64,000 bases of DNA, taken from Branchiostoma floridae (Eukaryota > Chordata > Leptocardii > Amphioxiformes > Branchiostomatidae). The stretch lies in assembly GCF_000003815.2 (NCBI RefSeq), contig NC_049979.1, positions 7,284,729-7,348,728 on the forward strand, in the 5' to 3' direction. Shown here one piece after another: positions 974 through 56,228 of the stretch. The notes beneath the pieces were generated by a model. The model was given only the letters and a program-made list of their open reading frames with translations. It had not been told where the DNA came from and made no database searches. Each line of letters starts with the position of its first letter. Within the stretch, counting starts at the first letter, position 1. A program made the translations under genes and the position numbers.

Positions 974-1129
974 CATGGCAGTTTTTGCATCATCGGCCAC
1001 CATGTACATGATACTTAGGTTGACCATGTCTTCTGCACTGACAACAGTGATGGACCGATCATCGATTGGTCCTTTGTCATCAGACTCCAGTTCCTCAATC
1101 GACTTATCATCCAAGAGAACCTTCCCATC
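974..1129 (-). CDS. PLCB4: PLCB4-like coding exon 4 (end of PH domain)
   Basis: 156 bp, 52 residues (79-130), acceptor TTTCAG and donor GTAAGG. It starts 'DGKVLLDDKSIEELE' and ends with 'MVNLSIMYMVADDAKTAM', the PH-domain helix region (compare 'VNISxTYMVA' in PLCB4). No following exon is visible between 1 and 973, so the next intron runs off the left edge. Confidence 0.88.
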
Positions 1130-4100
1130 CTGAAAATAACACGGAAAACAGATGTACATGTAGCTTACAGGCTGATTATACAGTTTGTACTACTGTCCAA
1201 ACAGTGGTTGGTGGGGAAAATTGTGAAATTTCCTCTTTTTTATTATGCCATATTTTTTTACCAGTTGGTGGGGAGGCTGATAAAAAATTACAGCATATAA
1301 GGGAAAGGTCGTGATTTTCCCCACCAACCTCTGCTTGGAGAGAATATATACAGCATACAAGTGAATGATTTTCATGTTTTTGATCCACTTAACACACCAG
1401 GATGATCATAAGTTAACAGCTGTTATTTGCTGGCGGATAGAGGACAGCCTTGACCCCATCTTGTAAACATCAGGTGTTGTTGACCTTTGACCTCCATGTT
1501 TTCTGCCGCAGAGGTTGCCTGCTGTGCAAATCTAGCAAACCCCATGCCAGTTATGTCACAGGTCATGGCCTCAAACCACCAAATATCCTTAAGCATGACT
1601 ATTATACATTGATCATGTGGTCATTTAAGTCTGCACCCTAAAAATGGTCCCTGATGCTAATGCAATGCGATAGCTTCACCTAATGCAATTCCCAGCAAGC
1701 TTACACATCTTGTCACTCTCAGGCTCTTCATTGCTGTTGTTATGATTCATGACGAGTCTTGTGCCGTATAGATCAATGGGCTACCATTGGAGAAACGTTG
1801 ACTGTTTGGAATACAAATAACCTCTCTAAACTGGACTCAATTTTCCAATCACATATTTTTTTACAGTCACAGTTATTTGGTACTGTTGGATATAAACAGT
1901 TATGATGATCATATTTGTATCATCATGCAGATGAATGTGTTTTTCAGCACAAATAATAATATTTGCATTATGCACTAAATTGAGAGATCTTGTGTTTCCA
2001 ATCTTATGGTAGCGTTAAATACATACAGTGTTTCTTCTCATCTCTCCAAAATTTTCAATGTCATATGGTCCTGACACTTTCCAGCTATTATGAATTCCTA
2101 CTGTATGTGTCATATCCAGAATGAAAAAAAAAATTAGGATTCCTTTTCAATGTGGAAGGGGGAGGTACAATGTACGAGAGCAAATAGGTCTCAGTACAAA
2201 TTCTTCAATACAAATACCCATACAATGCACAGGACTATTCACCTTGACTGAGCAACAAGGAGAATGCACAACAAGCCATTTACATTGAACCCTGATTGAA
2301 TTACTACATTCCCGCAGGTGACTTGATGGAGTAATTTTCCACATGGAGGAAGCTAAATGACATCTTCCCGTCAAATGGACCATTTCGCTGGTCCCTTTTT
2401 TTCACTCTCACAGTGGGAATCCCCATTTGTGGGACGGCCGTGGTGCTAACTGAAATGGAATCATGCCAGACTGAAGGAGGTGATTAACGCTGGCTTGAGA
2501 GCAGCGATGTGCACAAGGACAGAGGAACAACTGCAGCAAGCAGCACTTGCACGGGTAGAAAGTGTTTGGAACAAACATTGGAGGTTAACCCTTTCTTTCA
2601 AATGGAAGAGAAAGCAACCATTCAGTAGAGTATAGCAAGTATAGCTAACTAGACAACTGGGTACAATAGACAAGTTTTCAAGTACTGTCACACCTTACAT
2701 TAATTCTGTAATGCTTACATTACAAAAATGTACTTCTGTAAATGATTCAACTGCTTTTTAAGTCCGAAATTCTAAGGAACAAGCTCATTTTTTTCCAAGC
2801 CAATAAAGTTACCCCTGATTGGTCTGTTACTCAATAATACTAGCATACAGTATGACAAAATGTCCAAAACTATAGACAGGTCTTCCATCAATAAGAAATT
2901 CCCTATCCACTCACATTATCTATGGCAACACAGCATAGCCAGTTTATTTCAGATTGGATTACAACTGGCCTTCACAAAAGAGACCAGTCTGTCATCCACT
3001 GCCACTGAGTCTAGCATATTCAGGTGTTGAGTCCAATTACACCCCTGTCAGTATGATGGAAAGGTCTGTAATGGAGTAAGATGGATGATGGAGACATGTG
3101 TATACCTGATGTTTACTGATGTTGGTACAACAGAAAGGTCATCATCTGTTGCTGTCAGCTTCAGAGATGGTGTATTGCATATTGATACTCAAGCAGCGAC
3201 CAATTTCAACATCATCATTCATGAATCTATTTTAGCACCTTGCAAAGATCTGAATATAGAATAGAGATGAAGGACAAAAATAACTAAACAAGTGCTTTTA
3301 AAAAAGCTGGCGTTTCGTCTACGTTTATGAGTGTGAACTGTCTTTTTCTTGAAGTAAAATCTGTTAGAAAAAGTCACTCAAGGGCTGTTGCGTCTATAAG
3401 AAAAATTGTTATTTTGGAAAGGAGTACTGTTTAATAGCTGGTCTTGGCTTACAACTTTATTTCAAATGTACAATAAGTTCATTATAAAATCTATCAATTA
3501 TATTCAGGTACTTATGTACACTTGAAAAAGCACCATCAGCACTGTGACAAGATTCTATCTAAATTGACTACCAAATGTCAAACCAATTAACAGCTACCTC
3601 ATCTCTATTATACTGGTTTCCGCATTTACAACATTTCTTCCTTGTTTTCCTGGATAAGTTTGCTAATATTCATGAAAATTTCCATACTTTTGTGTCGAGC
3701 GGTGTGACTTTCCACATCCGTGTTGTCTGAAAACTTCTGAATGAAGTCGATACTGAACAATGGAGCATTTGCTACTGTAAGAAAGGATCGCTGTTTTTGA
3801 TGGAGTTTCATGCAAACAACATCAAGAGCCTCTGTTTACATCATGAATAGTAGTTTAGTGGCGAGTGTTTTGCGAGAATCATCTTACCGCGCATAGGAGC
3901 CGCTGCACGATATTTTCCATTACCATGAACAGAAAAATTCGAATGCCGGGTTTGGAATCTATGAAGTCCTGTTCATAAGACAAAGGCCTTGCATATATGA
4001 AATGAATACTAAAATTTAAAAAAATGATATGTAAAAATATAATATCAATAGATAAATAGAATATTTATATATTATCTTCAATATTTAAAAAGAAAAAAAT

Positions 4101-7100
4101 CCACTCTCGGTTTCGAACCAGGGACTTTCCGATCCGATGGCCTATGACTTTACCGATTGAGCTAAGTTGTTACGTGTATTGGATATGAGTGTAGTCGATA
4201 CTTAACAATGGAGCATTTGCTACTGTAAGAAAGGATCGCTGTTTTTGATGGAGTTTCATGCAAACAACATCAAGAGCCTCTAGATCTGTTTACATCATGA
4301 ATAGTAGTTTAGTGGCGAGTGTTTTGCGAGAATCATCTTACCGCGCATAGGAGCTGCTGCACGGTATTTCCATTACCATGAACAGAAAAATTCGAATGCC
4401 GGGTTTGGAATCTATGAAGTCCTGTTCATAAGACAAAGGCTTTGCATATATGAAATGAATACTAAAATAAATAAAAAATGATATATAAAAATATAATAGA
4501 TCTATCAATAAATGAATAGAATATTTATATATTATCTTCAATATTTAAAAAAAAAAAAATCCACTCTCTGTTTCGAACCAGGGCCTTTCGGATCCGAAGG
4601 CATATGACTTTACCGATTGAGCTAAGTTGTCACATGTATTATATATAAGTGTACATTATGCTTTAACCTCACTACATAGTATTATTTATGTCGATTTTCG
4701 GTCGCTTTCTTGATAAAATCATTTTTTTTCTTGTGCAATCTTGTGGAATAGATGTTATATGGCCATTTTCCAGGATATTGAAGTCCGAAACCACAATGCA
4801 ATGGTATTTCCAAACAGTTGTAGCAGTTGCATGCGGTCGTGTTGAACCAAACCAAGCACCAAGCATGCATCCATGCATCCATGCATCCATGCATCGAAGC
4901 AAGCACTGAAGGTAAAACCCAATACATTGCGTTTCGTCGCCAGAGGGCGACGAAACGCAAAAATGAGTGTGCTAGCTGCCACAGGGAAGGCTTTTAGAAC
5001 CATGCAAAGAAAAGGCAAATAAAAAGAGTTATCCCTCACTGGGACACAGAATTGCAAACTCCAATGAGAATGGATCGTTAATGATAAAATGTTTCACATC
5101 TTCTAAGGACATGCAGTAGATTCAAAATCAAATGGTTGAAATATGTGGACAAATGTTATAGAGGTAAATTGTGTGACCTATAGATGATTTGTACATAGAC
5201 AGGTCTAGTAGCACTTACACTTATTTCAGTACAGGTCTACTATTTCTTACACCTATTTCAGCACCATAAACAGCTACTACATTAATATCAATACCAAAGA
5301 TAGGTCTACTACCAATTCTGCTTTCAGCACCACAGACAAGTCTTCAATTTCAGTACCATAGACAGGTGTAGAAGCACTAACACTTATTTCAGTACTATCA
5401 GCAGGTGTATTATCACTTACACCGATCTCAGCGCCATTGACATGTCTATCATCACTTACACCAATTTCAGCATCATAGACAGATCTGCTATCTCAACAAT
5501 TTCCGCACCATTGACAAGTCTGCTATTACTTACACTGCATTCAGTACCATAGATATGTCTACTATCACTAACACTTATTTCAGTACCATTGGAAGGTCTA
5601 CTATCACTAACACAGATTTCAGCACCAAAAACAGGTCTACTAACAATTTCATTGCTTTCAGCACCATAGACAGGTCTGACATAAATTACATCATGTTCAG
5701 TACAATAGATATGTCCCTTACACTTACTTCAGTACCATTGGAAGGTCTGCCATCACCAACACTGATTTCAGCACCATAGACAGCACATTTGACACCAGTT
5801 CAGTTCATGAATACATCTATCTTCCACAAAAGCTGAATAATGATCATAGACCTAATGATTTTAGCTCATTAGACCTTGGTTCTTCATACATGACTTCTAA
5901 GACTTAGATCAACTCTTCCCAATCATCATACATAACAACTGACAGCACATCTCTAACTTCATATTATCAAGTAATAGGAAAATCCTCTCTGTATGCTGAA
6001 GCCATCTTGGTAGCACAGATACTATAATGTTAGCAAAAACTAAAAAGTACTTTTATCCATCGTCTTTTGTTTTTAATCTCATTGAAGAACACTACCTTTT
6101 TGTACACAAACCAGGCTGTTATTTCCTCTATACATGCAATCTTATTTTGCATAGAGGAGTGAAAATTACTGACAGGGAGAAGATTTCTGAAATTTACTGA
6201 CTCTTTAATACATTGATTCAGTCAAATACTGAAAGAGTTGTTGATGTCTTTTTTCATAGCATATCTGCTTGGCAAAAATTGAAACACAGCCAAGAATCCC
6301 AAACCTGTATTACTGCAACTGAGATGCATTGCGTTAACATTTGTATGTTTCAACCACCATTTACAAAACTGACAATGTGATGCCAGGCTTTTATCTGTTC
6401 TGAAGAATCTCGCTGAGCTGGAGCACTGACAAGTCGGAGCATGCATTAACGACATTAGCGCTAACCAGTTTTTGCTTTCAATGTGGAAATCTGAACATCA
6501 CCAGCAAATTATGTGCCAATCGTCCAATGTAGCAAGGTCACCTTCCAGGAAACAAAACCCTTTCACATTTACATCTCAAAAACATCTACAATACAGGGAA
6601 GTCTCACAAGTTCATACATTGCTTCAAAGAGACATCAGTTTGTTAAACGTAAAGGAGCAGAGACTTATTCCATTTGGGTATGGCACATAAAAGATAAGCT
6701 GTATCACAAACTCCATGTTTTTATGGCATTGGAGAAGGATTTTGACACATGTTATTGAACAAGGCAATAGAGTTCTAATGCAGGGCATTGCAAACTATTA
6801 CCAAGTTACAACAACACTCGAATTATTACACTCCAGGGCTCGAAATACTGGGTGCATGTGCACCCAGGTGCACCCAAAATTGGAGCTGTGCACCCATTTA
6901 TTTTCTGTGGGTGCACAGGGCGCACCCAAATATTTTTTTAGGTTTATGTATGTAAAGATATCAAAGTACTAGTATACAACATATTCTTGACATCTAAGTT
7001 AGAAAGATAATAAAATTGTCTGTCATGGTACTTGTTTAAGAACTTGATAGCTTGTAACTAAGTTTTATTATTAGGTTATTACTTAAATTTAAGTGGTGCA

Positions 7101-10100
7101 CCCAAAATTTTTTGGGTGCACCCAATTTTTTAAGCTGGGTGCACCAGTGCACCTAATCCCAAAAATGAATTTCGAGCCCTGCATTCACTTCCTGTGAGGA
7201 AGTTACTTGTAAAAACACATCCATCTTTTGTGACACCTTTTGCAAACTGCGTTTCATAGAATACATAGTAGCCAAAATTCACAATAGAAAACGTGCTGGA
7301 AAGTCGCAATGATATTTTGGGAGCAAACAGCTTTTTTGTCTGTGACTTCCTTGCGACAAACAGCTTAAGGAATAAGACATCTGGAAACCTCATGTACTGA
7401 TAACATGTCCATGTCACTGGCATGGCAATACCTGATGAAAAATTTACCAGAAGTGGTTAATTTGAATGATGTTATGAATGCAAGTATACATGTATCTTTA
7501 CATCATCTTGATCAATGATAGATTAAAAAATCTTTAAAATCATTGAAAATATAAACTGTAGAATTTGGTTACAAAAATAAAAGGAAGAAACATGAAAATA
7601 AGACCACAACCTAATGCTGTGTACTAAGGGAAGGAAAAGGGAAAACAATCCTTAAGCTTGTTGAGTCAAAACAACCAAGCGGAAGTTAGTGCAAGCTACA
7701 AGGTTTATACAATAACATATATGCATGTTTTTTCCATAGCTTTGTTTGTAAGTTCCATGTGTGTAAAAAATGCAAGCTTTTCAATTCAGTCCTGACTGGA
7801 ACAGCTTATGGACATAAGAAGTTTCACAACTCAGCTGTTAACCATGTCAACATCACTTCCTTCTTTGCAAACTACAAAAATAACTTACTTAAAGCCTCTC
7901 TCCCTCTCTCAAAGCCTCCATCTATTTCACAGACAGATACATACTGTTTGGGTACTGAGCTCAAAATACATGACAAGCCTTGCGCTTCCCTTGTTGGGTC
8001 AGACAAAAATGATTTCATTTCAAACTACCCTGCTAAGTTTTGAGACAATCTATGGCCCAGAACAGAACTATTTCTGTATAATTGCACCATCAGAACATGG
8101 CTGTACATGTGACCACCTTTTCACACACCATTACAAAATAAAAGCCCATTTGTATAGATGGGGTTGGCAATCAGGAGATTGTCTGATTTGCAAAATGGTA
8201 CACGAGATTGTTAAATGAGTTTCCCCAGCTTTTCAGCAACAGCACATATTCTTACTCGTTAACCCTTAGTTTGCTAAGTATGGTGATTTGCCATGTGAGA
8301 CCATTAATATAATAATAGTTATTTTGATTTTTAAGACTGTGTATCTGAACATAAGGGACAGGCTAGGACACTGATGGTGCTTTTTTGTCCTTTTTTTTTT
8401 CATGAAAAATGAACTGAGTTTAAATGCAAAAAGTGTCTGAATTTGCATTAAACCTGTTCCAAAAGATAGTGAAGGATACATTGCAGAGCCTTTTGCATGT
8501 TTTTTAAAGTTTTTGAGGGGAAAAAATACACATAGTGCTACTGGTCTTTATACTCTGGTCCAGTATAAAGTATCAATCACAATGTCCAGGTGTGATAAGC
8601 TTTGCCATGAAGATTCTCGAAGGCTTAACAAATAACTTTTATTTGGAAATGATGAATGAAGTTTTGACATCATCCCTTCCCTATTCACAGTTATGTTTCA
8701 GAACATTAGAACATGGCTCTCCCATGTGACCTTACACTACTCAGCACAGGCAGATCTCATTACTTCAAAATGCAAATTAAGATGCTATCACTTTGTCTAA
8801 TTTATCAGTCATTTCAACTGGCAAAACCTTTCAAAGTTAATTGGAAAGGGTACATTGCATTGTTTAAAGAAGATATGTAAATGATCAAAATTTCTCATAT
8901 TTCAATTTGATCAGAGATCCCAATGCAATAAAGATACGCAAAGGATGAACAGTACAAAGCTATTATTAGTATTAATCTAGTGAAGGATTCTGCATGCTCT
9001 GTCCTATATTGAATTTGATAATTTTCCTGACCCAATTGCAAGATTTTAAGCCTTCATCAAACAACGTAAATTACAGACCAGTATCATACATCTACAAACG
9101 AAGTGTGACCCCAATTCATGAATCTGTGCTACAAAGGATAGCCTAGATAACTGTGTCCTGCTTGGAGTTAGTCTTTGTTTGAAGGTCACCTTGTGAGTGT
9201 CCCCAGGTAGTCAGTGATGTCTAACAATCCAGGGCTCAAAATACTTTTTTCTGCACACCTGCACTGGTGCAGGTAACATTGAAAATTACCCGCACCAGAC
9301 AAATTTTACCTGCACCACTCTGAATCTAGGAAGTATGGATCATACTAAATTTTCTAGGAACCATTGCCACTTTTTCTTTTATACTTTAAAGGCAGTAACA
9401 GTCAGTGCAGCTTATTAACAATCCATATACACCTACATCATAAGGCATTCATGTATAAAACCCTGTACATGGGCCAGTGCAGGTTAGGTGGAGATAGACA
9501 TCAGAAATACCTGCACAGCTCCAATTTTACCTGCACTAACCTGCATATGCAGGTGGTATTTCAAGCCTTGCAATCAAAATGCTTCACTTCTCAGTCAGCC
9601 ATGGATTCCCGGCTACCAGCCAACAGCCATTGCATACACATGATGTAAGATGAAATGCCCAGAATGTCTGACGAGAAGACTGGCATGACTGACTGGTCCA
9701 AATACCATGAGCGTCTGAAAACATGTCCAGAATATTCTAAAAGCAGCAAATTGATGTCTATTGAGAGTTCCAAAATGTCTGCCAAGTGACCACAATATCT
9801 AACATCAGTATAGTTCCTCTGGAATATTTGACCGGAACATTTGACCTAGATGTCTAACAAGGTGCCAGAGTGTCTGTAGGATTGACGTGATATCTGACAA
9901 GGGACCATTTAGTGACCAAAATGTCTGCCAAGTGACCACAATATCTAACATTAGTATAGTGCCCGGAACATTTGACCTAGATGTCTAACAAGGTGCCAGA
10001 ATGTCTGTAGGATTGACCATGATATCTGACCAGGGACTATTTAGTGGCCAAAATGTCTGTCAAGTGACAATAGTGTCTAACAAGTGGCCAAAATGTTAAA

Positions 10101-13100
10101 CAAGGCAGCCTGGCAGGTGTTCAAAAACGGATTACAATGTCTAACAATCAAATTCCCCCTCTTTCAAGCTGCAGCTTAGTACAAGGTTGCTTTCCAAACC
10201 TAGCTCATCAGACCTGTTCCATCCTTTTCCTATCGTTTCTTTTAAGATATCTTAAATCAGAGCTGTAGTTGGTTATGGGAGATGGAAAAGAAGAGGTATC
10301 TACTAAGGGTGTTTTCTGTGAGAGTAATGGTTAATGCTAGTTCACCTTTATTCGTAGGGTAACCTTTATCCGTTGTACTCAATACCAGGGTATTTCACTT
10401 TCAGGATATCAAGTCGACTGACGGTGGTCTCAAACTACAATATGTTGAACAAAAAAGCAATTTGAAACCACCGTCCATCTACGTGATACCCCTAAATATC
10501 CTGCTTTTTAGGTACAACGGAATTAAGTTACCCCGCGAATAAAGGTGAACTGGCGTTACATCTCAAGTAACGTGGGACTGCAGAGGATGTCATCCATATA
10601 ATCAAATCAACATAGATAATGCTCATCAGGAGACAAGATACACTGTACATCAGATGCCCTGATCACATGGTACAGCATTTAACCAATACTGTTAGTGCTT
10701 AACAAATACTCCACCTGTTTCTGCACATAAAGACAAATGCTTCCTGCTTGATTATAAGTCTACCATGGACCACATGCTAATCTTGAACACAAATCTATTT
10801 TGGAGCATTATATTTCACAGGGACTATAGAGGCATACTCAAAGGGCCTACTACAGTCAGCTTCCATTGTACTAAAGCTAGCTAGAAATTTATGACACTTG
10901 AAGTTTTGCCTGCCTAAATATCACTAGTGGCAGCACATGGTTCTACAGCTACTGTTATAACTGAACAACTGAAAAAGCATCCCAACAAGAATTGTTACCT
11001 TGTGCCTTATATTTTCCATAAGCATGGTATGGAAGACTTCCCACCATATGTATTAAATCTATAAAAAAATAATAAAATTACCGGTAACACAGTTTTGGAC
11101 TTGCATCTGATTCAGCAGGTACATGTACATGTTAAGATTCACACCTGACTACTTAGGCTAAACTCACAACGTTATGGGGACTCCGGAACATGCAAGGAAC
11201 ATTACGTTTCGTCATGCATGGCACTTCTGTCATTGTGCTACTGCAGTCTTCCTATGTCCTAACACAGGAAAAGTTGAACAATGACAGTCTACAACTAAAC
11301 CTTATTGGAAGGAAAATGCTTTTTAAAAAACTTCTTTGTGTTGCTGATTATCCAGTGCCTGTACCTACAAATTGATTTCCTCAAAGGAAGGTGCCTTGCA
11401 ATATTTGATGAAACGAAAAACCAAACAACAAGGCACCATCTGTGTTACCTTGATAGAACATTAAATGTACCCTGTGGAAAGTCTTATCTAATCAACTCTC
11501 TGCAAACTAAGATGGTACAAGCAAGATATCCGTGTAAGATTAATTCAGCTGTCAGGAGTAGAGCCGGGAGGTTTCACTATGCATCAACAGCTGCCAGGCA
11601 AGAAAGCTTGTCATCAATTACACTGATACCAAAAGAGCTTTATGTTGTCAGGGTATCCCCACACATTATTACGAGAATTTGTAGGTATATACATTGACTT
11701 GAGCCCTGAGAGCAATCGATTCGGATTGTGAAAGTGATGAATATATACTGAAATGCCTACCTCAGTGTCATCTCATACGTTTTCTCTGTTATGCTGGTTC
11801 TATTGTACTGCTAAACTTTCAGATGCATTTTTTCTTGCAAATGAAACATTTGTAAGTATCTTGTATAAATCAGATCATTTTAAACCTTTGAAAAAGTCCT
11901 GGTAAATAGACCTCAAGTTTGACCGAAGTTACCCCAGTATCCCAAAAACATAAAATATGAGATTATACTAGCTCCAAGGAACAAAACATTTGAATGACAG
12001 TTATGTGCATCTGTCATATCTCAATAATTAGCATACAGTTTACTGGTTTATCAACTCCTTAAGCTGTCCCAGTCAAACCTGTACAGGTTACCACCTCTAC
12101 GTATTAAGGACCACCTGGCTACCTCTTTCTTGGGTCCCTCAGATATTTAGACACATGCATTGAAAATCAATGCTGCCTATACTGACCACCTGTCTATATA
12201 AACCAGATTTCACTGGTCCACAAGAGGTGGGCAGTTTTGACTGTTTTGGAACAATATCTGCTATCCTCTCGCTAACAATGTTATATGTTGTTATAAAATC
12301 GATTCAGGACAACGCACTTTTGTAAGGGATAAATCTGTGTGATTGTACAAATGTCAGCCATAGTTGCACAAGACGCTATAAAAATACATCTGGTGTGTTA
12401 TTTGCAGCCAGTACGTACCTCATTTTTTAGTATTGAGGCTGATTTTTACATGCTCGAGGCACCTCCTTGAACACAGAATCCCCGTTTTTACGTTCCTTCC
12501 GAAAGACGAATCCGTGAATTCTTGGTCGGGCTACAGCATCCAGTCTTCCTTGGTGGTCTCCCATCAAGTACTGACTGGACTGCAACTTGCTTAACTTCCA
12601 AGATTGGGGGGATTGGGTGTACCAACATGCCACACGGCCGTAGCTATATAGTACTGTATTGGGAGAAGCCTGCAAATATGATTTAGAATATGAATATCTC
12701 AGTATGGTGGGAACAATAACTTGGCCACACTGACTCTCAAGTCTTATGTTTTCCTTTGTCCGTATAGAATTGACCTCTGGGCTATTAGGGTTTTAATTCT
12801 CTTCCCTTAAACAATTTGCACTTGCTGTAAACAAGTTCTCAACAGGCTTGACTACTGACTTGGCAGGCGTCAGAATCGCTGAAAAGTTCCTTTGAAGTGG
12901 ACGGGCATGAGATCTAAGAGCTACACAATGGGCGCCAGCCGTGCTTAGGTCTGCCGAGAAAGATGGAGCAATTATCTCGCAAAAAGGAATGATCAATGCC
13001 CTTCCTCAAGTACATGTCCTGCATGTTTTCATGGTAATGGGGAAAGAAGCCTAGAATCAGTCAGAACTAAAAAAATCCGGTGGTAGTAAGTATTCCAAAA

Positions 13101-43860: not shown

Positions 43861-44124
43861 CCACACCTTGAAAGAAAAACTCATGCTGTGGCTTTGCCTC
43901 CTCCCATCATTCAAATGTACTGTTACCCTTTGCAGTGGGTTGAAAGAGAAAAGCTACCAAAAAAGCTCATTGATTTGATCAAAATCATTGTTGTTCTAAA
44001 TTTAAGGAAAAACGAGTTATGAATGGGAGAAATGTCATCTTGCAATGAATCAAGTCAAAGTCAAGTAACAAAAATGATCTATATGGCCTGAACAGGGATT
44101 TTCATAAGAGGCCCTAACATGAAA

Positions 44125-44239
44125 AAGCCTGAGTATCATCCTCCGTAGTAACCGCTAGCTCACGACGTTCGCTTGCTAATCACGGAAGCAAGCGAAAGTC
44201 GTGATCCAGCGGTTACTACGGAGGATGATACTCAGGCTA
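44125..44239. mobile_element. Fold-back MITE with 9-bp target duplication (MULE-like)
   Basis: 115 bp. More than 30 bp at each end form a near-perfect inverted repeat ('AGCCTGAGTATCATCC' at the left). AACATGAAA flanks both sides (44116-44124 and 44240-44248). A 9-bp duplication is typical of Mutator-like elements. Internal sequence is only about 40 bp, so it would form a long hairpin. Non-autonomous. Confidence 0.75.
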
Positions 44240-47071
44240 AACATGAAAGGATCTTCAACTGTTACAGTATGATCATATGTTCATTGCTCATTACCTGCAA
44301 TACATTTAAAAGACACATGCGCCTTCATGTGCTCCAAAACAAAATGGCATCATCATTTCCGTGTACATCACATGATCAGAGGATGAATTGCTGTGACCTG
44401 CTCATTACAAAGTAATCTTGTGGACTTTGTAAAATGAAAAACTGGTAAATGCAATTCCTTAAAGTCATGACAGAGTCTCTTTAGGCCAAGTTGCTAAAAG
44501 AAAACATCTAGGTAAAAAGCATCTTCCTGGTCTGATGTTCAAAGAATTTAACGTAAATGTGTTGAACATAAAAAGCTGTGCTACTAAAAATGTTTGTCGA
44601 CATTTTAACACTCAGGTAACGCTAAGACATCTCAGCAGGAAGCTTAACTGTCTCAGCACCCTCCAAATTTTGGACTTCCAGATTAAATCCGGACAAGCCT
44701 TAATCATTTAAAAATTGATTAACCAAATGAGTTAACATTTGCAAGTATGGTATATCAAAAGGTAATTAATGTGTAGGTAGCAATTAGATGTCTCCAGGAA
44801 CACAGCAAATTCTGGAGAATTCTCCAATTCTGACTCAGGTTCCTAGAATTCTGGAGAATTCTCATACTCTCCAAGCTTCTCACTATCTTGTCTGAAGAAC
44901 AACATGAACAAAGATGAGTCCAGAACATTCCAGCGGTACAATAAGTAGACTTGCCATGTTTACTGAAAGTTCCACCTTCAGGAAGGGTTGACGTGATACA
45001 GACTGTGTTATCCTGTGGAGCACATTGTCACCAGACATACAGATCATTGTCAGGACAATCTACTGTGTTACACAACGTCTTGTCCATACAAATGGTAGTA
45101 AATGGTCCATGCTTGACATCTTGGTCTAGTCTACTATTGTACGTGATGTTTCATATACATTGTATAAAGTAACATGTAACACAAAATGCAGAGTTTCACA
45201 ATGTACTCGTACAATGAAAGCAATAATTAGCTTTGCACCACTGTAAAATGATACATTTCTCCGAATTACTTGCAGTAAAACAATCCTATATTCCACAACC
45301 ATGCAAGTCAGATAAGACTTTAGTATAAAACACTCCTCACATTACATGCCACATCGACAGACACAAATATATTATTAATTACCACTGTGTAGTTCCTCCC
45401 GAACTTCATAATTTCTTTCACAGATATAATATATACATACACCAGTTATTACTTCAGAAATTTGTTACCATGGCATGGTGGTGGGGAGAACACAGTCAGT
45501 CACACATGCAATTAAAAAACTAAATTAAATACAGTAAAACAAAATGAGACATTCTTCCATCTTCTGCAGCACAGTGAGGATAAGGGGACAGTTACTGAAA
45601 GCATTGCACACATGCAGCATGTGGAGCAACAAAGCAAGATTAGCCAGAACCTTCCAATAGCCAGTACCTAACATCACTTATAGAATAAAGCCTCAAAATT
45701 GCACAGTAAATATAAAATCACACTGCTTCATAAAATTGTTCTCTCAGTTCCATAATTTGTACAGCTGATAAAATCTACATGCAAACAATTTGTACTAGCT
45801 ACATTATCATATAGAAAGTCAAAGGACTATATAGAAGTATAAAAATATCCACTGTTACTGGACTGTTGCTTTACTGTGAAATTCCTTAAAATGGCCTTTG
45901 GGAGCACGTCTAGTGTCCATACCATATATCATCTACACGTTACATTTTCACACGACACAGAAGACAGTCATAGCTAATATAGAAACAAGCTCAGTTTGTT
46001 GTTTTCTTTGTTTGTTACATTCTTTTCTTCCTCTCCGAGGTGTAGAAATGTAGAGCTACATGACTGGCAAGAACATTAGCTGATTACTTGGCACAACATC
46101 AAGTACTGAAAATGCACCACAAAAATTTGTAGAGTTAACTTCTTAGAATTCTTTGACTGAACTTCTTACAATCCAAGATCTGCTAAGTTGTCAGGTTTAA
46201 TATGGTTCATCACTTTCTTAGTATGTAGCACCAACAGTATGAAAATGTTGAAATAGCTGCAGATATTTCAGCAACAACTAACCCCAGATGGTAACTCATA
46301 CCTGATCAAATCCTCCTCATCTATGCAGGAACCTCAAAACGCCTCCAGCATAATGGAAAAAGTCTTCTGGATTAAAGAAATCAGTCATTTGTAGACTTTG
46401 TTTACTGTAGTTGTCACATCAGGATGCACTCTTACATTGCCTACCAGCCCAACAGCTGTGTCAAATGCAATGCTTTCAACACTTAACTATCTGCTCATTT
46501 CAATCATGGAAAAGTCATTGATGTAAGAAAAACATGATTCCATCTCCTTGTACAATCATGAAGAAGGACATTTTCCACTAGTAAATCTCACATCAAGTTT
46601 TTTGTGTGTGATGTGGATAGCTGACAGGTATGTTTGATGCTGTGATGTCCATAATCACTGCTTGTAGCAGAGCCAAGTTTCCAATAGCCTATGTCTGAAG
46701 CCATGCTTTCATTTCATAATGATTCAAATGAGAATGATTCCTCTGTATCTGCTACTGCTTGAGTGGTCAATGTACCAGCATGACGTGGTTTAGGAAATAA
46801 AGAATCTAGAATAAGGGATGACAGTCCGACGACTACAGTCAGATTCAGCACAATTTTGACTCTTTGAACAATCACGAAGAACAAGCACTGTGTAGAGAGC
46901 AACTCTGCTGCTGGGTCAGATCAGGTTTTCCACAGGCTCGGATGCTGCAGCAATTGCAGAAGGTCTGTCCACTTGTAGCACAGTCGTATAAGTCTGCAAA
47001 TGCAGCCATCAACAGCTGTAATGAAAGCCGGAGTCTGATAGCCAATGCTGCACGTGTCTGTGGCAGGACCT

Positions 47072-47209
47072 TTACAGGGATGTTCCAGTGGGCGTGCTGG
47101 GTCCGTTAATGGAGCTGGAAGCAGCGTCCTTTTCCTCCTGTAGTGCTCGCCACGTCTCGGGGAGGTCCTTCGACTTTTTCTCATATTCCACCATGATCTC
47201 GGCATTGGC
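47072..47209 (-). CDS. PLCB1: PLCB1/2/3-like last exon with stop codon and PDZ-ligand tail
   Basis: 138 bp including TAA, residues 579-623. Starts '[20 protein letters not shown]' and ends 'PTGTSL'. The last three residues, T-S-L, fit a class I PDZ ligand, as do the tails of PLCB1 (TPL), PLCB2 (SRL) and PLCB3 (TQL). Acceptor TTCCAG. Confidence 0.9.
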   Translation of the reverse strand, partial: ANAEIMVEYEKKSKDLPETWRALQEEKDAASSSINGPSTPTGTSL

Positions 47210-50200
47210 CTGGAAAGGATCGAGCAGAACGGATCAGGTTAGACACACCTATAAGGTCACAGCAGAGTGACATGATATACAAAGTGATTCATAGACGGTC
47301 TGTTTTTGTTGCAGGATATGACACCAAAGTATCACAACAAATGTTTTAAGCATGATTCATGGGCTTGCTTCAAAGGCTAGGCTCCAGCAGTCTGTATGGC
47401 AGAAATGGTACAAAGGGAAAGCCAAATTGAATGTGTTGTTTTTTTCTAAATCATAAACTGGCTTCGTGTTGAGGTCACATGCTTTCAAAGCCTTTAGAAA
47501 TTAAACACTATTCCATTTATGCATGCCAGCAAGTCCTGTGCAACTGATACATGTACATGTTGTGTACTGCCACAGTACCAAGAATACATGTCATGACACC
47601 TCCACACACAGCACAGGTCCTCACCTTCTCCTCCTCCTTACTGATGGCCTCTTCTATTTCCTTGTGATTCTTTTGCAGTTCCTCTGTCCTGTTGGAATGG
47701 ATCTCATCCAACTGTGATAAAGAAAAAGACACAGATATCTCAGGTTATAAAAAAGTTGTAAAAAAAGAGACACTACAATTCAACGATCTCAAGCTCTGAT
47801 TCAACCTACATCTACTTCATACTGGCCATTAACGGTAAAGCCTTGCAACCTTGCATATTTGTGACACCTAACTTTCCATACTACAAAATGTACCCAGATG
47901 TAGTATTTTTACTCTGTAAATCTGACAATGATAAACAAAACACCATCCCATGGTGTTGTTGACACAACAGACAAGGTCGTAAACAACCTGCTGTAGGTCT
48001 TAAACACAACATTTTGCTTTTCTCCTTTTATTATAGAGAGCCTGCTAATATTTGCATGGGTGCCATATGGATTTGCGTTAACACCCAGAGCCCTCTCTAG
48101 CAACACGTGTGCCCTTGTAAACAGACAGGGAGGGAGTCTGACCTGTTGTCTGTGCTGCACAGCCACCTGGATGTGCTTCTGCTGTGTCTCCCTCTTCAGC
48201 CTGGCCAGCTCGTTCCTGTCCTTACATCTCTTTGCCAGCGCTCTCTCCTCTTCTTTTCTCTGCTGATCAAGTCTCTGCTTCAGGTCTTTCACCTCCCTGT
48301 AGTGTGCACAACAGGTTTGAGAAAATTAGACAAGGCATGGATTTTTTTTATACCTAGTAGTACAGTACGAAGCTTTCCACGAAATCGTTTTCCGGGAGGG
48401 ACGTAAAACGGGGGTCCCGTGCTCGAGGAGGTGCCTCGACCACGTTTAACAGCCTCATTACCCACACTTTGGGTACCTACTAGCTGCAAAATACACCCGA
48501 TATTACATCTTTTCATTACCCTTTCATTCAGAAAAATAGTTGACCTTTTAAGAATTTGTCTTTGCAATGGCTGGGGTTAAACATTCATACCCAAATAAGG
48601 AACAGATTTTCTTTTGAGTCAACACAAGTTAGACAAGAAGGAATATATGCCACTGATAGTGCTGTGTATAACTGGCATAAGCCACTGTTACAAAATGCAT
48701 GCAGAGCTGGCATGTTACGCTAGGGGGCACTTATTCCAGTGCACAACGCAGGCTCATAAGTGATTGATGATGCAATGCAAGAGAGGAACTTACTTGTCAT
48801 GTATCTCTTTGACCTTCCCCATTTGTGTCTGCTGGGAGTTGGTCATCTGCTGGTGCAGTGTCACATACATCTGCAAGGGGGCATTGCAAGGGGGGATTTT
48901 GATCAACAACCTGAACATCACTTACATACAATGTATTTTGCATTGAGAACCATAAAGTGCAATGTGACACTGAGCCTTTTACTAAATTTTGAAAATTTCA
49001 ATGGAACTTGTAGTGCAGCAGGGAATTTTCCTTATCTTCAAATAGATATTACGTTACTTGGTAAACTCAAATCAAGGCTGAATATCAGACTTTTTTAGAT
49101 AGCTTGTAGCACATTGTGACACAGCTTGTATTTTCAGCCAGGCACTTCAGTCAGGACAACCTACTCTTCTCAATAAGCACAGCCATCCAACAATTTTGCC
49201 TAAGCACAGTTGTTTTGTTCCACTGTTTTTCAAAGTGCTATGTTGACAATACAAGAGAAAGTTAGTTCAAAAGTACTATTGCTATAAGCAACATGCTTAA
49301 CAGAACCTGACAAATTCTAAGCTGTGTGCCAGTGGTTTGATTGACACAAGGATTTTTCAACCTCCTTGATTGACAGAAGTGTGCTCACCAGCCCTGTGTG
49401 CTTCATTTTCAACTCCTTCTCCTGTAGACAGTGTTCCTTCCACGTGGACAGCCCTGCCTGGTAGTGTGCTTGTCGCAGGTCCACAAGCTGGTGGACAAAA
49501 CACAGTTCACTATCAGCAACTAAAACTTACAGATATTAATATAATGTCGTAGCTGACGTGTGTGTATATAGAATAGACACTTGTTACTTTTTACTGTCTA
49601 TATCATTGCAACTAGCCTACGGGCATGGATTTGCAAATAAATTAATTTAAAAAAAATATATATATAATGTCTGACAAGTCAGACATCAATTACAGAGAGA
49701 ATGAATCAAGTATCAAAGCTCTTGATTTGTGAAAGACAATATTCTGTAACTGTTAATGCAGAAATGTTCGTGGTGGATTAATTTTTCTATAATTAGACTG
49801 CAGTCTATGGTGTTACCACGAACTTAAATCCACCGTGAAAAGTCCTTTTTCCCGCTACCGCGAAATTAAATCCCCCCAAACTTAAATGCATTTACAGTAT
49901 CATCTTACCTGCTGCTCATAATCCTTAAGAAATTTCTCCATCTCAGCAGAGCTTTTCCTCTTCACTTCCTCCTCCACAGCCCTGCAGAGAAAAGGTAGAT
50001 CCTTTAACATTCCATGCAACAGAATACATTGCATCTGACACATGACTTGACTCCAATGAAATTCAACCTATATATCATAAAAGCACTTATAATACATCTG
50101 AAACACAAAATAGAAAACAGCTATAACACTCAGTTTTCCAAAAGCCGTATATGCTACTGACTAGTTAAGCAGTACCTGCAGTTCATATACAAACAGTAAG

Positions 50201-52666
50201 AGGGAGCCCCTGACTCACCCTGCCTGTGCTTTGTTTGCCTTCTTGAGCGCTTTGGCATGGCACTTCTCCAGAGCTAACCTGTCCTTGGCCTGTAGAGTCA
50301 GCAGTTTGTCCTCCTTCAGGGTCTGACTCTTTCTCAGCATGCCTCGAATCTATGGTGGAGAGAGGTGACTCTTAAGGTGGGGTCACACATGCGTATATAT
50401 CCAAGTCCGTTTGAGGTGCGTATGATGCTCTTAGTCTCTACCAGGCTCCTCAGGCCAAGGGGAAAATAGTACAAATTGGACAAATATAGATACATAACAT
50501 GCCAGATGAGTTAGCTGACCAAGAAGTATGGTTAGCAACCAAGCTAACTCATCTGACATGTTACCTGTTTACGTTTGTCCAAATTCTATTATTTTTCCAA
50601 CGACCTGTGGAGCCTGGTGGAGGTAAATACTCCCATGCGCGCCTCATACGGACTTAAATAGATACGCACGTGTGACCCCACCTTTAGCTTCTAGCTTTTT
50701 AACTTATCATCCTAAGTTGATAAAAGGCAGCAATCATTAAAATCTATAGAATATAGGAAGGTGGTTGTTTTGTTTTTGGTGTTCAAAACATGATTTTCAT
50801 TTTCAATCCCATTGTGGCCCAGTCCTGAAATTACACTTGAATACCAGGCGTATGTGGCTCACCTTTTCTTGTTTCTTGCTAAGAGCAGCTAGTTCTTTTT
50901 GTTGCTTGTCTTGTAATTTCTTGAAAGTCTGGAATACAAAGGAGAAGATCTTTCCATTAGGAATGCTGACATCTTGTGGCTATCAAAGACACACCCATCT
51001 GTTTTGTGTAAACAAGCACACAGAAAGCTAAATAAATGGCTGGATAGATGGACAAATTGATGAATGAATAAATGAATAAATGAACAAAACAAATGTACAA
51101 ATGAATAAACAAACAAAGGAATGAAAGAAAGAAAGACTGATTGAATGAATGAATGAATGGAGAGGTTGAACAAGTTTGTTCACCTTGAGTTGTTTGAGCT
51201 CCTGGATGGTGAGAGGTTTGAAGATCTCAGCTGGCGGCTCCTTCTCGCCCTCAGGTGAGGACAGGGACTTGTTTATTGTCTGGTCTATGGACAGGCTGGG
51301 CGTGAGCACACCTGATGTGAGAGACTTCCGACCTGCAGAACACAGGAAAACAACACGCGTTAAAATCTTCCTATGATATCATCTTACCTGTGGGAACTAT
51401 CCAAACATGATTTACATTTGAGTGACATTTGCATATGATCCATATGAGTTAGTGTGACTTTGACAGGTGCAACTGAAAAATTCCAGACATGCCTGCAGAA
51501 TTTTTGGGATTTCTTGTCAAACGGATGCACATTATACTATTAGGCTAGCCCCTGAGGCGTCGCCAAAAATACACTGTACTTCACGGACCAATCAAAAGAA
51601 TACAGATAACTGATTGTTTTGCTGGATTTGCAATTTTACAGGACTGTTACAAAGCTTCTGTGCTTGCTTTTCTTTTTACTTCTCATGAACTTATCACTAA
51701 AAGAAGCCTTACTCATATGTATCAGTCAATAGCCAAGCTTCCCTACCTTTTTCAATCTGGACGGCAGATGGCTCTACTGACGTACTACTGGCCACCCTGG
51801 ACACGGCACTGTGTATGTTGGCAGTGTTTGGTGACGACCCCTTCCTTGCGTTGGCAGTGGAACTCAACTGTTCCATGTTGGTGGAACCAGAGGACAGGCT
51901 GCGCTGCACCGGTGTGCCACTGGTCTTCTCCCCTGGGGTCATCTTAGGTCGGCCGTCTTCCTCAGTTGTACTGATGTCATCATCCTGTAAATACATGTAC
52001 AGCCCGTGTCAGACCAACCTGGGAAGACAGTCTCCATGATGATTACATCAATTTGACATTTTAAGTTTACCTTCAAGTTGGTTTCCTGAGGAAATGTTTT
52101 CCATGATCCCACCAAAAGGCACACCTTTCAGGCTCACGATTACTTTGTTTGTTAAGAGTCACCATCCAACTTTCATTCAAAGAATGGTCTGCACTGGACT
52201 TAAAATACATGTATCTTTTTTTGATATTATCAAGGCAGTAGTGCTATGACTTAAACATCCAAAATTGACATCTGATTAACAAATCCTACTGACTGATATC
52301 CCCTTTCACACCCCTTTCCACACAATAATGACTTCTCCACACCTCCATAAGAGCCTCCAGCTGCTGGGCTCTCTTCTCAATCATTGCTTGGTATGCGATG
52401 GGGTTAGCCAGGGCATTGGCAAAGTCTGGACAGAGTGGGTGCAAACACAAAGGAAAATTGTCAGCAAAAATTCTACGATGCACAAATTCTAATACCTGAC
52501 AAGAATTTCCATTGGCCAGTTTGTGACACAGAATCCAAACAGTACAAAACATTTGTCAGCCACGAATGTCTAGTATCATAGATAGAATGTGACAATAAGT
52601 GGTAAATGCAAAACATCTTTCTATTAGGTATAGACATTTATCTGACAAATCCTCTACATTTTAAGT

Positions 52667-52716
<50 letters not shown>

Positions 52717-55700
52717 CCAGTAATTTATATGTTCTTCCAAGCAGTGTTGGTGCTACAACATGAAGATAAAACAATGAGTGAAGTACAGAATATAAAATAC
52801 TTCCACTTTGTGTCCATCACTTCTTCATTATTACTTTTTTTAAGACAACAATTAACAGATCAGAATATTATCAATAAAACATGTCAATTTCTATTGTCAT
52901 ATTGAACAAGAAGTAGGACCGACCTTCAAAGCTATCAGGGATGAAGTCTTTGACAGTGATGTGGACAAACACTGTGGGGAGGTTTAAGGGTTGGTTGGCT
53001 TCATTCCGCAGAACAACGTGCCTGTAGCCTATACATAAAAAGAACCATTGATACATGTAAGTTGATGCCTTGAACACAAAACTCCACAGAGTTAGAAATG
53101 AGATAAATGGTACCACAGTTAGTAGTTTGTTGTGAAAATTCATTATTGTTTTTCAATTGTACTTATACAGGTATAGGTAGTAGGACCTATTTTACCATAA
53201 ACCTGTAAATTACAAGACAGAAATCTGAATCTGAATTTTTAGGCAAAGCTGTAGTTTGAATTCTGTATGATTGTGAGCTACAATGCTGCCAGAGCCCCCT
53301 TAAAATCAATATAGTTTGGAAGAGCTCAGCCACATTGCTCAACACTTAATGCACAGATAGATTTCCTTGGAAGTCATCTACGGCCTAGATGCAAGACATG
53401 TTCCATCAGATCTACCCGGTAATAACCTGGGCGTGGGCAGCGTTGCCAAGGAAACAGTGACGTGCGTGGTATTCCCTTTCAAAGGTCAGCTTGTTTGTCA
53501 TGGAAACATCTCCAGAAATGGGAGGCAAAGGTTGAGGAGAAGGAAAGCTACAGGAGTGAGGGATTTGGTCTCCTGACTTTGGGTCTTTTCTGTGATACCT
53601 TAGTTTGTGCTTAAGAGATATGGGTAGAGATCTGATTCTTTCCTTGTGTCTGAGTAGGATTTTTGAGCTGGGATTATGTTCTCTGTGTAAGTGAAACATC
53701 ACAGAGGGATTTAAAAAATGAATGAATGTATTTTTGGTATTCTTGGAAGACACAAATGTCAAAACATGTTATAAACAGAGCCAGCTTGGCATTATCAAAA
53801 AGACAAGTGTAGAATGACCTTATTGCAAGAAGTGTCAGCCTCGTGCATTACAGAAGTATACATAAGTCAGACCATTCAAAATATGACACTGATCATGTTA
53901 TGTGCATGTGTGTAGGTGTGATCCTTGGCCTAAATGGTAATGTTGCGGGAAGTAATTTCAGCTGAGTGCAAGCTACACAGGGCTTAATGGGAGACTTAGA
54001 TCAAGGCGCTCCATGAAACCATCTGGTAAAAAATATCTGCCAACATAATCTGGTAAATGCCAAATAAATGTGCATTTTTAAGTCGGTACACCACAGTCTA
54101 ATGGACAAGCAGCGCATGACACATCTCACTAATTCTTGCTGTCTTTCTCCTGTGACATGCAGTGAATACTGATGGAAACCACAAGGGATCTTATCAGCCC
54201 ACATGCTAGGTGTATCGTAAACACCATGTGTGGATTTTCCTAAGAATATTGTATTTTATGGGTTGAATGGTGCCCCCAGCTACTTTTATCCCCTTTCAAA
54301 ACTTCAGTTTTACCATATGTAAATGAATACCGTGATGCAGTAAAAAAAAACCATGACATTAAAGCCCTACCTGGTCTGAGGCCCTCCACAGGTAGGATTC
54401 TGTGGCCTATAAATTTCCCATTCTCTTCACTCACTGAGATGCGCAGGACTGCTAAATGGGGCAGTACAACCTGGACGGTGACAGAAAAATACCAGGTCAG
54501 CAACGTGAATGAAGATAGATCCATATGACATGCTCAGACATATGTCTAATTTATGTTAAGTAGAGTGGACTCATTCCTCAAGCTACCAACATCTTTCACA
54601 CCGCATTCGGTCCTCAGTACGACATCTTGAGCCGCGTAGTTCCAGTTCAGAACTTTAATTCAACCTGTCGGCCAAACCGGTTTCATATTGTGTACAACTT
54701 CTTCAGTGGCTAGAGGCTTAATGACACATGTTCACAAACTTTGCACTTATGCCCAGTGCATTATCACACTCAGGTATATCTAACTTGAAATCATTATTTA
54801 AGGGTAAGTTCCTATAATACGAGGACTACATGGTTCCAGTTTCTTTTCTGCAGATGTGGCATAAGTGTGTACAGTGGCTTGAAGTTGTCCTTCCCCGTAC
54901 TATTGAAATTCACCCATGGTCATGCTTAGAAAAATGCCCATATTCGGACAGAAGTAAATACCCATACTACGTAATGATGATCCTACCTTTTTGAACACAA
55001 AGGGTTCCTCATCGTATATGGGGTTGATTCCATTGGCTGGGACCACCTTGGTGCGAAAGCGCTTACGGACCGTGTCTGCCGGTAAGCCATACATGTCCAC
55101 CTCCACGTACGTGCCAACTTTTTTGTCTGTCAGAAACTGTCCTGAGATCACCTACAAGGGTACAGAACAAACGTTTCACTACATATAGATATCACTTTCT
55201 GATTTCAACATGTTTTACACAAAAATATCATTTCAACACAATCAGTAGAATGTGGGGCAACTGTAATTCTCTATGGGAGGTAGAACACTTAATAATGTTA
55301 TGCAATCACATACACACATGTATGTATGTATGTATGTATGTATACATGTAGTAGTGTAAGATAGCCGGGTCATCAACATTTACTAAGCCAAACCAGAGAA
55401 TCCTTAGAATCCTTAGGTGTTGCTTCAAGGCATGTTTCTAGAAATAGCACCAAGTAGGCTTCAGTGGCCTTGTAATCAAAGGTCTTGTGGGTGAATATGT
55501 TACAGTCTATTGGCAAAATTAACTATGACTGTCTTTGCACAGCTACCAAAAGTCTTGGTTTTGCCATCTGTAAATACTAATTCCCAAATCAAAATGGGAG
55601 TAGGAAAGCCAGAATATTTATCACTGTCGACAAGCATCATTGTAAGCATCAGTAAACCCTACACTTGATTTACCTTGACTGTTACTGTTCCTGCAACAAT

Positions 55701-56228
55701 ACCATCTACGGTGGATTCTGCAAAAGGGTCGAAGTGTCTGTCTGTGCGTCTCATGAAGTCTGGCTTGAGGATATAACCGCTCCTGTTGTTGTATTCAAAG
55801 AATCCCATATTCAACTGCATGCCAAGATCTATAGGGTGAGGAGGGGGAAACAAAGGGCATACTGTTAAGGCTCAGTTGCAACTTGTCTCAGCATGATAAT
55901 TATAAACAAAAATAATCAGTTCTATGAATCTCTACAGGTTATTAGGACTTACTGAAACAATAATAGTAGAGTGGGACAAAGCATCCACACGCAAGGCAAT
56001 TAATCAATAGTGATTGTGGACAAATCCATCTAGGGACACAAACATTTCAAGCAAAACATTATCTATAAACAAGATTAGACATTTCACCAAGGAAGATGAA
56101 AAAAATAAGGAAGCATAAAAATAAGTAGCAAGTTTTAAAATAACACTAGATTTGAGTGTCCCTGACTGTGCCTTACCTAACGTTTGGAAGTTCAACGCAA
56201 CGAGCTGGCAGCCCGCATTCCAGAATAC
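47072..56228 (-). CDS. PLCB1: Phospholipase C-beta, PLCB1/2/3 class (C-terminal 623 residues, 16 exons)
   Basis: Gq- and Gbeta-gamma-regulated PIP2 phospholipase. Sixteen exons join without a frame break to 623 residues and a TAA stop. Residues 1-60 finish the catalytic Y half ('[14 protein letters not shown]', '[12 protein letters not shown]'). Residues 70-192 are the C2 domain ('[12 protein letters not shown]', '[13 protein letters not shown]'). Residues 193-340 are an acidic and Ser/Thr-rich linker. Residues 340-610 are the Lys/Glu/Gln-rich coiled-coil C-terminal domain that binds Gq and membranes. The tail ends TSL, a class I PDZ-ligand pattern like those of PLCB1-3. '[13 protein letters not shown]' and '[10 protein letters not shown]' fit PLCB1-3 better than PLCB4; one lancelet gene would be co-orthologous to all three. 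Exons for PH, EF hands and the X half are not found up to 64000. Confidence 0.93.
47625..47711 (-). CDS. PLCB1: PLCB1/2/3-like in-window exon 15 (coiled coil)
   Basis: 87 bp, 29 residues (550-578). '[20 protein letters not shown]' followed by an acidic run. Acceptor TCACAG, donor GTGAGG. Confidence 0.9.
48143..48296 (-). CDS. PLCB1: PLCB1/2/3-like in-window exon 14 (coiled coil)
   Basis: 154 bp, residues 498-549. Highly charged helix starting '[20 protein letters not shown]' and ending 'VAVQHRQQ'. Acceptor CTACAG, donor GTCAGA. Confidence 0.9.
48370..48520 (+). mobile_element. Headless copy of the 5S-derived SINE body
   Basis: Collinear with the body of the 12.4 kb SINE: 'GGGACGTAAAACGGGG', 'CTCGAGGAGGTGCCTCGA', 'CAGCCTCATTACC', 'GGTACCTACTAGCTGCAAA'. 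The 5S head is missing, as in 5'-truncated retroposons. In the intron between in-window exons 13 and 14 of the PLCB1/2/3-like gene, opposite to its transcription. Confidence 0.6.
48794..48870 (-). CDS. PLCB1: PLCB1/2/3-like in-window exon 13 (coiled coil)
   Basis: 77 bp, residues 473-498. Contains '[20 protein letters not shown]'. Acceptor TTGCAG, donor GTAAGT. Confidence 0.88.
49389..49487 (-). CDS. PLCB1: PLCB1/2/3-like in-window exon 12 (coiled coil)
   Basis: 99 bp, 33 residues (440-472), phase 0. Contains '[19 protein letters not shown]', like the 'LxxLRQEQYxxE' region of PLCB1. Acceptor CACCAG, donor GTGAGC. Confidence 0.9.
49744..49899. mobile_element. MITE with CTGTAA...TTACAG ends
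   Basis: About 156 bp. Left part 'CTGTAACTGTTAATGCAGAA', right end 'TTAAATGCATTTACAG'. Inner arms 'GTTCGTGGTGGATTAA' and 'TTAAATCCACCGTG' are inverted. In the intron between in-window exons 11 and 12. Confidence 0.65.
49909..49981 (-). CDS. PLCB1: PLCB1/2/3-like in-window exon 11 (coiled coil)
   Basis: 73 bp, split Gly415 to Gln439. Contains '[20 protein letters not shown]'. Acceptor CTGCAG, donor GTAAGA. Confidence 0.88.
50219..50349 (-). CDS. PLCB1: PLCB1/2/3-like in-window exon 10 (coiled coil)
   Basis: 131 bp, residues 372-415. Charged helix starting '[20 protein letters not shown]'. Acceptor CATAG, donor GTGAGT. Confidence 0.88.
50376..50682. mobile_element. Fold-back MITE with GGTGGGGTCACAC ends
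   Basis: About 307 bp with inverted arms: 'GGTGGGGTCACACATGCG' against 'CGCACGTGTGACCCCACC', then 'AAGTCCGT' against 'ACGGACTT', then 'GATGAGTTAGCT' against 'AGCTAACTCATC' near the centre. It sits in the intron between in-window exons 9 and 10 of the PLCB1/2/3-like gene. Confidence 0.75.
50863..50928 (-). CDS. PLCB1: PLCB1/2/3-like in-window exon 9 (coiled coil)
   Basis: 66 bp, 22 residues (350-371), '[20 protein letters not shown]' plus EK. Lys/Gln-rich helix aligning with 'FxKLQKKHxKE' of vertebrates. Acceptor TTCCAG, donor GTGAGC. Confidence 0.9.
51030..51170. repeat. Degenerate (AATGAATA)n simple repeat
   Basis: Imperfect AATGAAT, AAACAAA and GAAAGAA repeats on the + strand, in the intron between in-window exons 8 and 9. 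Confidence 0.8.
51184..51332 (-). CDS. PLCB1: PLCB1/2/3-like in-window exon 8 (linker into coiled coil)
   Basis: 149 bp, residues 300-349. Ends '[11 protein letters not shown]', matching the 'TIEELKQxK' that opens the C-terminal domain in vertebrate PLC-beta. Acceptor CTGCAG, donor GTGAAC. Confidence 0.92.
51747..51984 (-). CDS. PLCB1: PLCB1/2/3-like in-window exon 7 (acidic, Ser/Thr-rich linker)
   Basis: 238 bp, the largest exon, residues 221-299. Starts '[13 protein letters not shown]' and continues with low-complexity Ser/Thr/Asn/Ala sequence. This is the poorly conserved linker between C2 and the C-terminal coiled coil. Acceptor TACAG, donor GTAGGG. Confidence 0.9.
52343..52425 (-). CDS. 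PLCB1: PLCB1/2/3-like in-window exon 6 (post-C2 helix)
   Basis: 83 bp, residues 193-220. Contains '[19 protein letters not shown]', the conserved post-C2 helix ('ALSNPIxY...RAKQL' in vertebrates). Acceptor TCCAG, donor GTGTGG. Confidence 0.93.
52668..52711. repeat. (AT)n microsatellite
   Basis: More than 40 bp of pure alternating AT in the intron between in-window exons 5 and 6 of the PLCB1/2/3-like gene. Confidence 0.95.
52924..53028 (-). CDS. PLCB1: PLCB1/2/3-like in-window exon 5 (end of C2)
   Basis: 105 bp, split Gly158 to split Asp193. Contains '[14 protein letters not shown]' and '[15 protein letters not shown]', the last C2 strands. Acceptor TATAG, donor GTCGGT, which is acceptable but weak. 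Confidence 0.94.
54371..54470 (-). CDS. PLCB1: PLCB1/2/3-like in-window exon 4 (C2 domain)
   Basis: 100 bp, residues 125-157 plus a split Gly. Contains '[18 protein letters not shown]' then '[11 protein letters not shown]'. Acceptor TCCAG, donor GTAGGG. Confidence 0.95.
54987..55151 (-). CDS. PLCB1: PLCB1/2/3-like in-window exon 3 (start of C2 domain)
   Basis: 165 bp, 55 residues (70-124), phase 0. Starts '[19 protein letters not shown]' and ends '[10 protein letters not shown]'. Acceptor TTGTAG, donor GTAGGA. Confidence 0.95.
55316..55346. repeat. (ATGT)n microsatellite
   Basis: Repeated ATGT units in the intron between in-window exons 2 and 3. Confidence 0.9.
55674..55828 (-). CDS. PLCB1: PLCB1/2/3-like in-window exon 2 (end of Y box)
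   Basis: 155 bp, residues 18-69. It contains '[19 protein letters not shown]' and '[11 protein letters not shown]', diagnostic of the end of the catalytic barrel and the link to C2. Donor GTAAAT. Confidence 0.95.
56177..56228 (-). CDS. PLCB1: PLCB1/2/3-like in-window exon 1 (Y half of catalytic barrel)
   Basis: 52 bp, acceptor CTGCAG, donor GTAAGG, encoding '[17 protein letters not shown]' with the last codon split. This is the barrel strand ahead of the Y box. The exon before it should end in a segment like 'SSNYMPQ' and is not visible. Confidence 0.92.

Follow-up and report, generated by a model that had tools for sequence, protein, structure and literature searches.

A probable head-to-tail pair of PLC-beta genes belonging to the PLCB1/2/3 (Plc21C) and PLCB4 (norpA) classes

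Both classes of PLC-beta gene, and the human pair that joins a member of each, are already known. Human PLCB1 and PLCB4 are neighbours on 20p12, in the same orientation. One report places a variant at chr20 8,683,515 within an intron of PLCB1, near PLCB1 and PLCB4 (PMC12031715). A search of titles and abstract openings, in which subscription journals are largely uncovered, returned no invertebrate report of the pair among the matches listed. In Drosophila, Plc21C and norpA represent the same two classes that we found at the locus described here, and since fly and human each own both classes, the classes predate the fly-human split. A further point of comparison is the PDB chain 3qr0, a cephalopod (Sepia) PLC-beta.

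In a window of 64,000 nucleotides, which is the whole stretch of DNA analysed here and has the intron-bearing character of animal genomic DNA, the minus strand, left unnamed in the initial annotation, carries both PLC-beta genes, referred to herein as gene A and gene B, with gene A upstream and gene B next downstream (Table 1). The best explanation of the data is that this is an invertebrate locus with two genes of distinct ancient classes arranged head to tail, a PLCB1/2/3 (Plc21C) gene upstream and a PLCB4 (norpA) gene 14.8 kb downstream, and we put the probability of this reading at roughly 0.85. The arrangement is like that of the human locus, where the PLCB1-class gene is also upstream, the PLCB4-class gene is next, and the two are co-stranded. 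The human genes are far larger, whereas here 14.8 kb separate the stop codon of gene A from the ATG of gene B and the introns of gene A within the window measure 237-1342 bp.

Gene A is represented by its 3' part, for which a splice model of 1,845 bp without an internal stop was assembled, with GT...AG borders at all 15 introns and phases that agree throughout. The initial annotation had the C-terminal exons of one PLC-beta ending at 47072, and the last base of the gene A stop codon does lie there. Since the exon borders were picked by splice and phase rules, the model demonstrates consistency rather than giving independent proof, and the independent evidence for gene A comes from the homology matches of its joined protein. 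This protein matched PLC-beta chains in the PDB (3qr0, 1e-99; 8emv, beta-3, 4.5e-99) and the Pfam families PI-PLC-Y (59.8 bits) and PLC-beta_C (PF08703; 62.4 bits, cutoff 27.6), and its content runs from the end of the Y box through the C2 region and the Gq-docking helix-turn-helix to the C-terminal domain. The C2 region is visible by alignment to PLC-beta chains, the Y-C2 portion aligning to 3qr0 over 224 aa. The Pfam C2 model gave no match to gene A at E 0.01; PLCB1 was also unmatched, and PLCB4 and NORPA were matched. Within the splice model, the acceptor of exon 10 is weak, and the start given for this exon (50322) could be off by about 20 bp.

Above position 56228, a pattern search extending to 63990 revealed no 5' exons of gene A, nor did tblastn with four PLC-beta queries, and the 5' part, comprising the PH, EF-hand and X domains, presumably lies beyond the window. 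On the same flank, a 636-aa open reading frame at 62089-63999 on the minus strand encodes a reverse transcriptase domain (RVT_1, 116.6 bits) and continues past the window edge. This is apparently a young LINE, co-stranded with gene A and probably sitting in one of its introns.

Table 1. Positions of the two PLC-beta genes, their exons and the spacer between them within the window.
Feature	Position	Strand	Content and basis
Gene A, PLC-beta 3' part	47072..56228	-	16 exons, 614 aa + stop; splice model, PDB, Pfam
Gene A first exon within the window	56177..56228	-	Part of Y box
Gene A exons 55828-55674, 55151-54987, 54470-54371, 53028-52924, 52425-52343	52343..55828	-	Remaining Y box, C2 region, Gq-docking helix-turn-helix (ALANPI motif)
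Gene A exons 51984-51747, 51332-51184	51184..51984	-	Linker from C2 to C-terminal domain
Gene A exons 50928-50863, 50322-50219, 49981-49909, 49487-49389	49389..50928	-	C-terminal domain, PF08703
Gene A exons 48870-48794, 48296-48143, 47711-47625, 47209-47072	47072..48870	-	C-terminal domain and stop codon
Spacer between gene A stop and gene B ATG	32314..47071		14,758 bp
Gene B, PLC-beta 5' part (PH domain)	413..32313	-	5 exons, 156 aa; continues past the low end of the window
Gene B exon 1	32221..32313	-	ATG at 32313; in-frame stops upstream of the ATG
Gene B exon 2 (ESSSVEFNCTFKTDEYGFFLYWKAEGK)	24905..24985	-	Splice model; tblastn with PLC-betas
Gene B exon 3 (EGQVLEISTVNDVRPGAQAK)	17199..17258	-	Pattern search, shuffle control; absent from the initial annotation
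Gene B exon 4	974..1129	-	Splice model
Gene B exon 5	413..492	-	Splice model and comparison with PLC-betas; absent from the initial annotation

Gene B, by contrast with the 3' part that represents gene A, is represented by its 5' part. Pfam recognised the PLC-beta PH domain, PH_14, in the joined exons (118.4 bits), and comparison with PLC-beta chains in the PDB gave matches of 5.4e-16 and weaker. Chain 3qr0 was the top PDB match for the gene B fragment, as it was for that of gene A, although gene B is nearer to PLCB4 and NORPA. The start codon had been placed 14.8 kb downstream of gene A on the same strand, in agreement with the ATG and the 14,758 bp found between it and the stop codon above. 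The low end of the gene, previously set at 974, had to be moved, as another exon lies beyond it (492-413) and the gene continues past the window. Exon 3 was picked by pattern from three candidates and, being pattern-derived, was put to a shuffle control, in which it scored 104 against stretches of PLCB4 and NORPA and the best exon per dinucleotide shuffle reached at most 59 (n = 40). The first three introns of gene B, of 7.2, 7.6 and 16.1 kb, are long compared with the 0.24-1.3 kb of those in gene A within the window, and the fourth measures 0.5 kb. The EF-hands, X, Y, C2 and C-terminal domains of gene B would be expected below the start of the window.

The introns of gene B also contain repeated sequences. 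A degenerate 5S rRNA-like sequence (58.6 bits) lies at 12528-12645 on the minus strand and is followed by a tail that resembles the conserved domains of SINEs; the element is probably a 5S-derived SINE within a gene B intron. The long intron between exons 3 and 4 carries two tandem 460-bp copies with 92% matches (3738-4653) and a minisatellite with units of 39/78 bp (5347-5783).

No gene was detected in the spacer, a result that applies to genes other than those built solely from short exons, which would escape detection. Of the 13 spacer open reading frames of at least 90 aa, ten were scanned with Pfam and matched no family, and the remaining three extend into the last part of gene A or into exon 1 of gene B; at a threshold of at least 60 aa, 54 reading frames overlap the spacer, 10 of which were Pfam-scanned. 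Ten further reading frames yielded two Pfam matches, both under cutoff and judged to be due to chance, and a tRNA scan using the bacterial code found none. A MITE-like, near-perfect palindrome occupies 44126-44238 in the spacer, its two 52-nt arms being 94% complementary and 9 nt apart. The observed/expected CpG ratio of 0.45 suggests past methylation of the DNA and nothing more.

To assign the two genes to classes, we compared them with six PLC-beta references, and PLCB2 was left out of the trees. A first round of tree tests, covering placements of gene A and gene B and the branch lengths under forced placement, was unrooted. Gene B had been described as PLCB4-like, and this description is borne out by its scores of 154 bits to human PLCB4 and 123 bits to NORPA, against 77 bits or less to the other references (Sepia PLC, 77; PLCB1, 75; PLC21C, 74; PLCB3, 69), as well as by a tree in which PLCB4, NORPA and gene B grouped with 100% bootstrap. 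Attaching gene B immediately outside the crown of PLCB4 and NORPA was not rejected (AU p 0.30). Placement of gene B with PLCB1+PLCB3 was rejected (AU p 3.7e-7). At 41 alignment columns without a residue common to both classes, gene B agreed with PLCB4/NORPA in 19, with the other side in 7 and with neither in 15; identity of its PH domain to that of NORPA was 38.7%. Gene B is assigned to the PLCB4/NORPA class.

The Y-C2 region of gene A scored highest with PLC21C (340; 69.4% identity), followed by PLCB1 (335), Sepia (325), PLCB4 (318), NORPA (304) and PLCB3 (300), PLCB3 thus ranking under PLCB4 and NORPA. In the C-terminal domain the scores were 60.1 bits with PLC21C, 47.0 with PLCB1, 46.6 with PLCB4 and 44.7 with NORPA. 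Likeness to PLCB3 (62.4%) and to PLCB4 (62.6%) slightly favoured PLCB4, and the PDB chain of PLCB2 gave 231.7 bits against 338, two values that are not strictly comparable because the PLCB2 chain stops after 185 aligned residues. On the PLC-beta_C model, where gene A scored as given above, PLCB1 scored 191.6, PLCB4 37.0 and NORPA 19.4, the last below cutoff. When Sepia was put in the PLCB1/2/3 class before counting, gene A agreed with the PLCB1/3-Plc21C-Sepia side in 26 of 40 columns without a residue common to both classes, with PLCB4/NORPA in 3 and with neither in 11. Residues A858, L859, P862 and I863 are named as critical for Gq binding by PLC-beta-3 in PMC8633581, and the ALANPI motif of gene A retains the counterparts of all four. 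At the position of I863, PLCB4 has K and NORPA has R.

In the unrooted round, none of the three gene A placements was rejected. Trees rooted with PLC-delta, PLC-zeta and PLC-gamma outgroups were then used for nine placements of gene A, on Y-C2 and on Y-C2 plus the C-terminal domain (values given in this order). Four of the nine, with gene A as the lone sister of PLCB4, NORPA, PLCB1 or PLCB3, were rejected (AU p ≤2.5e-4 and ≤3e-5). The best tree placed gene A in the PLCB1/3-PLC21C-Sepia class, and the split between gene A with the PLCB1/2/3 class on one side and PLCB4, NORPA and the outgroups on the other had bootstrap values of 78% and 67%. Human PLCB1 and PLCB3 clustered to the exclusion of gene A with 100% bootstrap, so that the DNA probably comes from an invertebrate. 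The remaining placements were likewise not rejected, the AU p values being 0.56 and 0.46 for gene A as sister of PLCB1+PLCB3 jointly, 0.65 and 0.42 with Sepia, 0.11 and 0.17 with PLC21C, and 0.34 and 0.35 as sister of PLCB4+NORPA jointly, at the base of their stem. Gene A therefore best fits the PLCB1/2/3-Plc21C class, as the initial annotation had proposed, on the strength of the best tree and the rejection of a sister relationship to PLCB4 or NORPA, with the class-separating columns, the PLC-beta_C score and the Gq-docking motif pointing the same way; the proposal is qualified by the alternative that gene A may attach to the PLCB4 stem at its base.

Unlike the human locus, where PLCB1 itself occupies the upstream position, this one has an upstream gene that is not the lone sister of human PLCB1 or PLCB3. 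Together with the human order, this makes a pair already linked before the vertebrate genome duplications the natural reading. The linkage would accordingly go back to the ancestor of the human PLCB1-PLCB4 pair and likely predates those duplications. That the pair has this age was also claimed in the initial annotation, and the claim is supported as far as the two co-stranded genes and the position of gene A outside the human PLCB1/PLCB3 cluster carry it. We consider it very improbable that the genes became neighbours separately here and in vertebrates. Such an origin would sit well with Drosophila, where, unlike genes A and B, norpA (X) and Plc21C (2L) are unlinked, so that linkage is not universal; it would also call for an identical neighbour, order and orientation to have arisen by chance. 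Given two specified genes out of some 20,000, we put the odds of this at about 1 in 40,000, a figure that is our own estimate rather than one derived from data.

Tandem duplication is common, and the position of gene A at the PLCB4 stem base stays compatible with the AU tests, both of which would suit a lineage-specific tandem duplicate inside a single PLC-beta class. The branch lengths under forced placement disfavour this origin. When gene A was forced beside PLCB4+NORPA, the distance between its attachment point and the other class was zero and it carried none of the PLCB4/NORPA stem, and when gene B was forced out of the PLCB4+NORPA crown, it fell at zero distance from the crown and carried the whole stem. 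We regard a duplicate of this kind, a possibility that the initial annotation had itself raised, as slightly less probable still than separate linkage. The fragments of genes A and B cover different parts of the protein, with no homologous stretch in common and no joint alignment possible, and the question of two genes or one is therefore decided by class. A single PLC-beta gene in which mis-assembly or rearrangement had put the 3' half before the 5' half, also raised earlier, would explain why gene A is solely a 3' part and gene B solely a 5' part without homologous overlap, but its probability is equally slight, as the halves differ in class, gene B grouping with PLCB4+NORPA (100%) and gene A being rejected as a sister of PLCB4 or NORPA.

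Under the preferred reading of two genes of distinct ancient classes, genes A and B, as members of this family, are each predicted to encode a Gq-activated enzyme that would convert PIP2 to IP3 and diacylglycerol; catalysis is expected on the same grounds, the window containing neither the X domain nor most of Y. Passive retention would be sufficient to account for the linkage, and shared regulation of the pair is a possible, candidate explanation. It seems doubtful to us, though less far-fetched than the alternatives above, that a tandem duplication, head to tail, gave rise to both bilaterian PLC-beta classes and that their linkage has persisted for more than 500 million years in several lineages because one gene carries, within or near it, regulatory elements of the other. 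The locus points to an old gene pair that has been kept together, which is nothing new in kind and a modest evolutionary finding. If confirmed in other phyla, it would give the vertebrate PLC-beta genes a simple history, with a single linked pair before the genome duplications. In that history PLCB1, PLCB2 and PLCB3 would be copies that survived from the upstream gene, and PLCB4 the sole copy that survived from the downstream gene. The pair could then be used to ask whether signalling genes stay linked over long periods through shared regulation or through inertia.
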